Source: Marivita sp. GX14005
GTDB taxonomy: Bacteria > Pseudomonadota > Alphaproteobacteria > Rhodobacterales > Rhodobacteraceae
Reading direction: 5' to 3'
DNA: 64,000 nucleotides
Assembly: GCF_023370775.1 (NCBI RefSeq)
Contig: NZ_JAMCCQ010000002.1
Span: forward strand, 496,001 to 560,000
Shown: in pieces, positions 23,079 to 23,497 of the stretch
Position numbering within the stretch: position 1 is the first letter of the stretch
How the letters are laid out: the number at the start of each line of letters is the position of its first letter
Notes under the pieces: generated by a model
What the model was told of the DNA's origin: nothing
The model's database searches: none
The model's input: only the letters and a program-made list of their open reading frames with translations
Program-made: the position numbers and the translations under genes

Positions 23079-23480
23079 CTAGCCGCTTTGTCTGCACGGC
23101 GAAAGCGCTTCCGCCCCTTCCTCGAGAAGCCGGTCGAGAAGCGCCGAGATATCCTCGATCTCTTCGGCGATGACATGGCAGACATCGCCCTCCCGTTGCA
23201 CCCGCCCCGTCACGCGCAACATGCGCCCGGCGATCACCGCACGGCGAAACCGCTCATACATCTTGCGCCAGACGATGACGTTCACCGTGCCGGTCTCGTC
23301 CTCCAGCGTCAGAAAGATCACCCCCTTGGCCGTGCCGGGCCGCTGCCGCAGGATCACCAGCCCCGCCACCGCCACGCGCGCCCCGTTCGGCGGCAGCGGA
23401 AGCTGCGCGGCGGTCAGGCAGGACGGCGGGCGCGGCCAGTCCCGGCTTGGATCGGGCGCATATGAACAAAGATTCGACAT
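23079..23480 (-). CDS. Orphan C-terminal OB-fold domain of error-prone polymerase DnaE2
   Basis: A 133-aa reading frame whose core (about residues 35-110: VAVAGLVILRQRPGTAKGV, then FLTLEDETGTVNVIVW, RFRRAVIAGRMLRVTGRVQRE) matches the OB-fold near the C-terminus of DnaE2/ImuC. The polymerase, PHP and thumb regions are missing. The flanking DNA is filled by ferredoxin and lipoprotein genes. The usual extreme C-terminal tail of DnaE2 also seems absent. The ATG at 23480 lies three bases from a GTTC-N7-GTTC LexA-type box. It is either the scar of a deleted imuA-imuB-dnaE2 cassette or a small SOS protein in its own right. The intact frame favours recent loss or retained function. Confidence 0.65.
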   Translation of the reverse strand: MSNLCSYAPDPSRDWPRPPSCLTAAQLPLPPNGARVAVAGLVILRQRPGTAKGVIFLTLEDETGTVNVIVWRKMYERFRRAVIAGRMLRVTGRVQREGDVCHVIAEEIEDISALLDRLLEEGAEALSPCRQSG

Positions 23481-23482
23481 GG

Positions 23483-23497
23483 GAACAAAAATAGAAC
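23483..23497 (-). promoter_or_regulatory. LexA-type SOS box (GTTC-N7-GTTC)
   Basis: On the minus strand the bases read GTTC, seven bases (TATTTTT), GTTC. This is exactly the alphaproteobacterial LexA operator form. It sits immediately upstream of the orphan DnaE2-domain gene and 106 bases from the divergent ferredoxin start. An exact 8-base match is expected about twice by chance in 64 kb counting both strands, so placement beside a DnaE2 fragment is the real support. Confidence 0.6.

Follow-up and report, generated by a model that had tools for sequence, protein, structure and literature searches.

The error-prone DNA polymerase DnaE2 (ImuC) is described by the NF004225 and PRK05672 profiles as one continuous chain ending in an OB domain, and is encoded in a LexA-regulated ImuA-ImuB-DnaE2 cassette. 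In Alphaproteobacteria the LexA operator takes the form GTTC-N7-GTTC. A C-family polymerase in two pieces is known from cyanobacteria, in which an intein joins the halves of the split DnaE. The accessible portion of the 2013 survey by Timinskas et al. (PMC3919608) mentions this intein-split DnaE and also reports several DnaE2 sequences without an OB domain. A 2026 survey of bacterial polymerases (PMC12926913) describes, in the portion available, eleven association modules and a stand-alone ImuB-C protein. A cassette of the imuA-imuB-dnaE2 type from Dinoroseobacter shibae (NC_009957.1) is mentioned in the accessible part of PMC9426580. LexA sites predicted in PMC6473078, which treats the same species, fall into GTTC and GAAC motifs, and dnaE, imu and "error-prone" are absent from its main text. 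"OB domain" is not mentioned in the accessible text of PMC6511836. A literature search covering largely open-access main texts, exclusive of supplements, found no report of a separate OB gene.

A separate gene for the DnaE2 OB domain

The window, meaning the whole stretch of 64,000 nucleotides from Marivita sp. GX14005 that was analysed, carries an open reading frame on the reverse strand at 23079..23480, with 133 codons without a stop when counted from the ATG located 3' of a LexA-type box. Searched against the NCBIfam model NF004225 (error-prone DNA polymerase, DnaE2), the 133-aa protein covers only profile positions 942–1041 of 1047 (112.9 bits, E = 1.3e-32); the next-best polymerase model scored 36.7 bits, which identifies the domain as DnaE2-type rather than DnaE1-type. 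The first-pass annotation, which had matched the intact frame only to the C-terminal OB domain of DnaE2, was correct on this point, and Pfam PF01336 agrees. Profile search detected no PHP-Pol3-HhH catalytic core in the frame, which by itself does not qualify as a DnaE2 polymerase. The C-terminal profile match, the orthologues and the dN/dS values given below together mark it as a gene in its own right that encodes the C-terminal OB domain of DnaE2. Neither Pfam nor NCBIfam holds a family model specific to this gene.

The OB-fold domain occupies residues 36–111 (23148..23375, reverse strand), as judged from PF01336 (E = 1.8e-13), an AlphaFold2 model and fold matches in the PDB. The model predicts an OB fold plus a C-terminal helix (pLDDT 87.1, pTM 0.77) and was matched by Foldseek to the OB folds of aspartyl-tRNA synthetase, Stn1 and ExoVII; the 50 matches listed by the fold search are generic OB folds, with no DnaE among them. 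Sequence search of the PDB returned weak matches only, RPA14 being the best (E = 0.011), with DnaE 5fku_A at E = 0.086. Upstream of the fold, residues 15–20 (23421..23438, reverse strand) form a WPRPPS motif. WPRPP was counted in 90 of 113 separate OB proteins versus none of 34 fused DnaE2 C-termini, and the segment may serve in docking.

A longer, 161-aa reading from an in-frame ATG 5' of the box was rejected. The start 3' of the box was adopted because it is common to relatives, whereas the upstream ATG is out of frame there (e.g. at locus L005). Within the genus, the median dN/dS of the gene is 0.15 over 136 pairs, with a value of 0.48 for the closest pair (dS 0.058). This purifying selection bears out the earlier remark that pure decay was the less obvious reading.

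A conserved LexA-type box at the start codon

The box, GTTCTATTTTTGTTC, is a perfect GTTC-N7-GTTC located at 23483..23497 on the reverse strand, 2 bases 5' of the ATG. Its form and its closeness to the start had been noted correctly in the first pass; the gap had been given as 3 bases. In the window as a whole, two perfect GTTC-N7-GTTC motifs were observed versus 1.42 expected by chance, and the whole genome contains 123 versus 79 for a control pattern. The second motif of the window (46506–46520, forward strand) has a G+C-rich spacer and looks like a chance occurrence.

The box was surveyed at 121 OB loci, comprising 17 of the genus (including the window's own) and 104 others. At 114 of these loci the OB gene has a perfect box before it, in coding orientation, with the consensus GTTCTATnTTTGTTC and a spacer that is also conserved (TATnTTT). 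Among the 113 loci with a start codon, 99 have the OB start within 5 bp of the box, 75 of them at 2 bp. The seven loci devoid of a perfect box include two with one mismatch (L010 and L203) and two that are ends of fused DnaE2 (L224 and L225); no box was found before the OB frame at L075, L178 and L223. At L223 (G099) the OB frame spans 400 codons, no LexA box is present, and the upstream DNA repeats a G+C-rich unit. In a second set, the best 80 of 591 loci, which overlaps the first (L321 is G002) and includes some fused genes, the box is present at 72 of the 80 named loci.

The box is regarded as significant because of its conservation (114 of 121 loci); its frequency in the window alone is near chance. 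A chance motif, which that count would not reject, is ruled out by the conservation across loci. Decaying sequence with a chance motif, raised in the first pass, is likewise not borne out, the relatives having kept both box and frame. With GTTC-N7-GTTC conserved at its promoter, the OB gene would belong to the alphaproteobacterial LexA regulon. The second of two guesses in the first-pass annotation, a small SOS-induced OB protein, is thereby favored, in that a conserved LexA-type operator precedes an intact frame under selection. The space between box and ATG does not accommodate an ordinary ribosome site, and the OB transcript is therefore likely leaderless or equipped with a very short leader.

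A divergent gene at 23603..23926 (forward strand), which we take from its sequence features to encode a [2Fe-2S] ferredoxin, is a conserved neighbor that marks the locus and lies outside the system. A similar gene was found at 29 of 29 relatives' loci with 1.5-kb flanks, 70 of 75 with 2.5-kb flanks and 73 of 80 with 4-kb flanks. Within the genus (1.5-kb flanks), the ferredoxin gene was present at 6 of 17 loci and a peptidoglycan-binding neighbor at all 17. Between the ferredoxin gene and yebC, positions 23970–24001 of the window form a G-/C-rich stretch with inverted symmetry, a possible terminator or repeat.

The DnaE2 core and the dispersed imu genes

Search of the same genome with the DnaE2 profile identified three places: DnaE1 (581.9 bits to the DnaE2 model), a DnaE2 core on contig C1, and the window frame on contig C4 (profile positions 941–1041 in this search). 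The core gene (C1:853120-856005) is intact; its match in this search scored 1212.8 bits over profile positions 5–938 of 1047, and its 963-aa product, which aligns to positions 6–937, is devoid of exactly the OB domain. The protein retains the PDIDVDF motif and ends in ...RRHPVALLRHILTP, directly before the point where the OB domain would start; the catalytic part of the split DnaE2 ends right after the conserved HPxALLRxxLTP stretch. Together, the window frame and the C1 core span one DnaE2. The first-pass label of "orphan" domain consequently does not apply. Its other proposal, a scar left by an internal deletion with promoter and tail spared, is wrong because an intact core lacking exactly the OB domain is present on another contig; about a hundred genera are alike in this respect, and the truncated cores form one clade (see below).

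A box, GAACAAAATAAGAAC, is located 12 bases 5' of the ATG of the core gene. The imuB gene (C1:665212-666873), which is matched in NCBIfam only by DNA polymerase IV models, has a box 21 bases upstream, and an imuA-like gene (C4:286188-286829), whose match to the ImuA model is weak (E = 3.2e-8, 33.7 bits, under the cut-off of 150), has one 15 bases upstream. The imuA-like gene, imuB, the dnaE2 core and the OB gene thus occupy four loci, each with a LexA-type box. All genes of an ImuA-ImuB-DnaE2 mutasome are present, but not as a single cassette. The first pass had suggested looking for full imuA/imuB/dnaE2 in the rest of the genome. The parts are there; the cassette is dispersed rather than deleted, and its dnaE2 lacks the OB domain.

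The same dispersal is apparent across relatives: the dnaE2 flank contained imuB at 33 of 34 fused loci versus 1 of 42 truncated loci, with mostly 1.5 kb of flank scanned and 2 kb or more in a dozen. Before the truncated dnaE2, a perfect box was found at 20 of 42 loci and a box with at least 7 of the 8 conserved bases at all 42, as compared with 1.0% and 6.7%, respectively, in random stretches of the same loci. The box is mostly GAACAAAAnnnGAA(C/T), about 25–33 bases 5' of the start. GAAT replaces the second GAAC in 22 of the 42 boxes, always in the same half-site (e.g. L095, L098-L100, L317, L320), and is perhaps a tuned, weaker operator.

Distribution in the genus, family and class

Orthologues of the OB gene were found in 17 of 17 genomes of the genus. 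A survey of 248 genomes of Rhodobacteraceae in the broad sense, one per genus, revealed two architectures: a full-length DnaE2 (to about position 1047) versus a DnaE2 ending at ~938 plus a small separate OB frame. Among the matches listed, by hand count, 104 genomes have a separate OB gene, 101 a truncated DnaE2 and 98 both. The count of separate OB genes excludes the short frames of G037 and G194 (ends of fused DnaE2), G249 (frame broken by a stop), G094 and G107. The split arrangement is therefore common to about a hundred genera. One genome (G051) has the split set and, in addition, a fused cassette on a 126,304-base replicon. A search of plasmids with the DNA of the OB locus returned matches to part of the query only.

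In a survey of the class, 129 of 289 genomes matched, four of them from the family. The matches listed outside the family are long frames with the exception of nine short ones, of which six run up to the edge of a contig, one represents a full DnaE2 whose frame is broken and two are short pieces, one of these located 60 bases from a contig end. No box was found at any of the nine. Because the listed matches outside the family are fused or at contig edges, save the two short boxless pieces, the split looks confined to Rhodobacteraceae in the broad sense.

Joint inheritance of the parts

Co-occurrence was evaluated on a DnaE1 tree of 79 mostly complete genomes picked by hand from the match lists: 46 with the split set, 3 labelled split plus fused, 1 with the OB gene only, 9 fused only and 20 with neither. 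The last group comprises 19 of the 34 genomes without an OB match and G227, which has no DnaE2 and a weak OB match (E = 3.0e-6). G060, G178 and G196 were left out of the tree and included in the presence and imuB counts. The OB gene is present in one member and absent from the other in twelve independent pairs, located on separate, supported branches. The truncated core changes with it in 10–12 of the 12 and in the opposite direction in none (median p = 0.0005, with the G253 core counted as absent); counting that core as present gave 11–12 of 12, removal of G227 and G025 left the result unchanged, and removal of the fused-only genomes gave 8–10 of 10 (median p = 0.002). At a threshold of E = 1e-15 or better, imuB was detected in 49 of 49 OB-bearing genomes, in all 3 with the truncated core only and in none of the 20 chosen genomes with neither; that of G253 is of the cassette type (38% identity) and that of G178 is a contig-edge piece. 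Joint loss of genes that lie apart is to be expected of a working system. A mirror-tree test of the OB protein against the DnaE2 core in 20 genomes gave no signal of co-evolution (partial r = 0.13, with 400 of 2000 permutations as high, not significant).

Several genomes contain one half without the other. Among the genomes examined, G067 (100% complete) alone clearly has an OB gene in the absence of any DnaE2; its OB gene has a box and is accompanied by imuB, a combination that may indicate use of the OB protein without DnaE2. The G067 box (L170) was found 33 bases 5' of the start, and imuB is at G067:C4:43369-44967. G253 has the OB gene and a mere fragment of a truncated core beside a fused cassette. 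The OB gene is present with DnaE2 in pieces in G077, G084 and G174, and with only an ambiguous polymerase fragment in G134. Conversely, G060, G178 and G196 have a truncated DnaE2 and imuB with no OB match.

Origin of the split

In a tree of 65 DnaE2 cores, all 31 truncated cores form one clade (SH-aLRT 96), which sits beside two fused cores, L227 and L229. This tree was obtained by quick search and drawn at midpoint, and 9 of its 65 rows were cut at 960 residues rather than after the core. The deepest truncated core is that of G210 (L199:1827-6570), whose dnaE2 stops before the OB domain and is followed about 1 kb further by a 185-aa frame. That frame contains the OB domain and a DnaE2 tail, HPRDQAKRLFPSRDFH, and has a box 5 bases 5' of its ATG. 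To judge by its gene layout, G210 shows what reads as a half-way form of the fission. An RDFH end is found in 32 of 34 fused proteins and, among 113 separate OB proteins, only in that of G210. A TRGNPD-like tail, TR(G/A)N(P/T)D, terminates 6 of the 31 truncated cores (L085-L088, L110, L112) and is absent from the core of the Marivita genome; as a guess, such tails are perhaps a trace of the old RDFH tail.

The OB tree, with 92 columns, requires 3 changes. The separate OB domains do not form one clade in it, nor do they in any (0%) of 200 bootstrap trees. It separates them from the fused OB domains, except that L227, L229 and the long-branched L041 fall on their side, and its starred branches do not exclude one origin. 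As support for a single origin, the OB tree was discarded because it gives none.

Interpretation and alternatives

It is quite probable that the OB domain of DnaE2 became, through an ancient fission, a subunit in its own right, SOS-induced and part of an ImuA-ImuB-DnaE2 mutasome whose genes are dispersed. At the level of sequence, this reading is carried by the two-gene architecture, the boxes, the shared inheritance, the purifying selection and the single clade of truncated cores. Early in Rhodobacteraceae in the broad sense, dnaE2 would have undergone fission, whereby the OB part acquired its own gene, usually near the ferredoxin gene, with a LexA-type operator directly at the start codon. 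The imuA-imuB-dnaE2 cassette would have broken up as well, and imuA, imuB, the dnaE2 core and the OB gene therefore stand at four places in the genome. DNA damage would lift LexA from all four operators at once, after which the OB protein would associate with ImuB and the DnaE2 core at the lesion, where it would make the contacts to the template that are provided elsewhere by the fused domain. LexA binding, induction, rejoining in trans and an ssDNA role of the OB protein are presumed here, partly by analogy with the fused enzyme. Observations against this reading are the genomes G067, G253, G134 and G060/G178/G196, the null mirror-tree result and the failure of the OB tree to give one clade.

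Some of these observations would fit a split-off OB protein that took its own SOS role, acting on ssDNA with ImuB or with another polymerase such as DnaE1, and no longer served the DnaE2 core. G067 keeps the OB gene and imuB without DnaE2, in G253 the OB gene persists beside a mere fragment of the truncated core, and three genomes have a truncated DnaE2 with no OB match; the WPRPP motif distinguishes 90 of 113 separate proteins from all 34 fused ones, and the mirror-tree gives no signal with DnaE2. This appears quite unlikely when it is considered that the OB gene tracks the truncated core in 98 genomes among the matches listed and in 10–12 of 12 independent pairs, and that G067 is the sole clear exception of its kind. 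It is also conceivable, if unlikely, that the SOS-induced OB protein binds ssDNA as an exchangeable subunit, acting together with ImuB and not tied to a single polymerase. Fission would then have enabled the cell to adjust the dose of the template-binding part of its error-prone polymerase or to replace that part, and G067 would represent a working DnaE2-free version.

The boxes would still be real LexA sites if the OB gene had arisen from a DnaE2 more than once rather than by one event, as the OB tree would have it with its 3 changes, its lack of a single clade and its 0% of 200 bootstraps. We regard this as very unlikely in view of the one truncated-DnaE2 clade in the core tree (SH-aLRT 96) and the same ferredoxin-side locus in most relatives; the starred branches of the OB tree are themselves compatible with one origin. 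A deletion scar, or a decaying fragment with a chance motif, is hardly credible: it would account for the presence of only a C-terminal part at the window locus and for the near-chance motif count there, but not for orthologues throughout the genus (17 of 17 genomes) and in about 100 genera, the conserved box, a dN/dS of 0.15 and an intact core elsewhere in the genome.

An ancient fission of dnaE2 would mean that a C-family polymerase was divided at a domain border and that about a hundred genera have kept the excised domain as a gene with a LexA-type operator. The separate OB gene offers an explanation for at least some of the "OB-less" DnaE2 proteins, a small gene without its own family model gains a likely name and partners, and the role of the DnaE2 OB domain becomes testable through simple gene deletion.

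Comparison with known systems

With DnaE2/ImuC (NF004225 / PRK05672) the present system shares its alignment, the OB protein covering the last ~100 positions and the partner core 6–937; unlike that enzyme, it is encoded by two genes at separate loci and not as one chain. All parts of the LexA-regulated ImuA-ImuB-DnaE2 cassette are present in the genome, each with a LexA-type box, but they are dispersed, the OB domain constitutes a fourth gene, and imuB lies near 1 of 42 truncated as opposed to 33 of 34 fused dnaE2 genes. For the OB-less DnaE2 proteins of PMC3919608, by contrast, the accessible portion of that survey describes no separate OB gene, and Rhodobacter, a separate gene and fission are unmentioned there. 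The stand-alone ImuB-C protein of PMC12926913, as described in its available portion, is similar in that a mutasome domain is encoded separately, but a different domain is concerned, and OB domain/OB-fold and Rhodobacter are absent from the main text. The intein-split DnaE of cyanobacteria is likewise a C-family polymerase in two pieces, whereas the DnaE2 described here is cut at a domain border.
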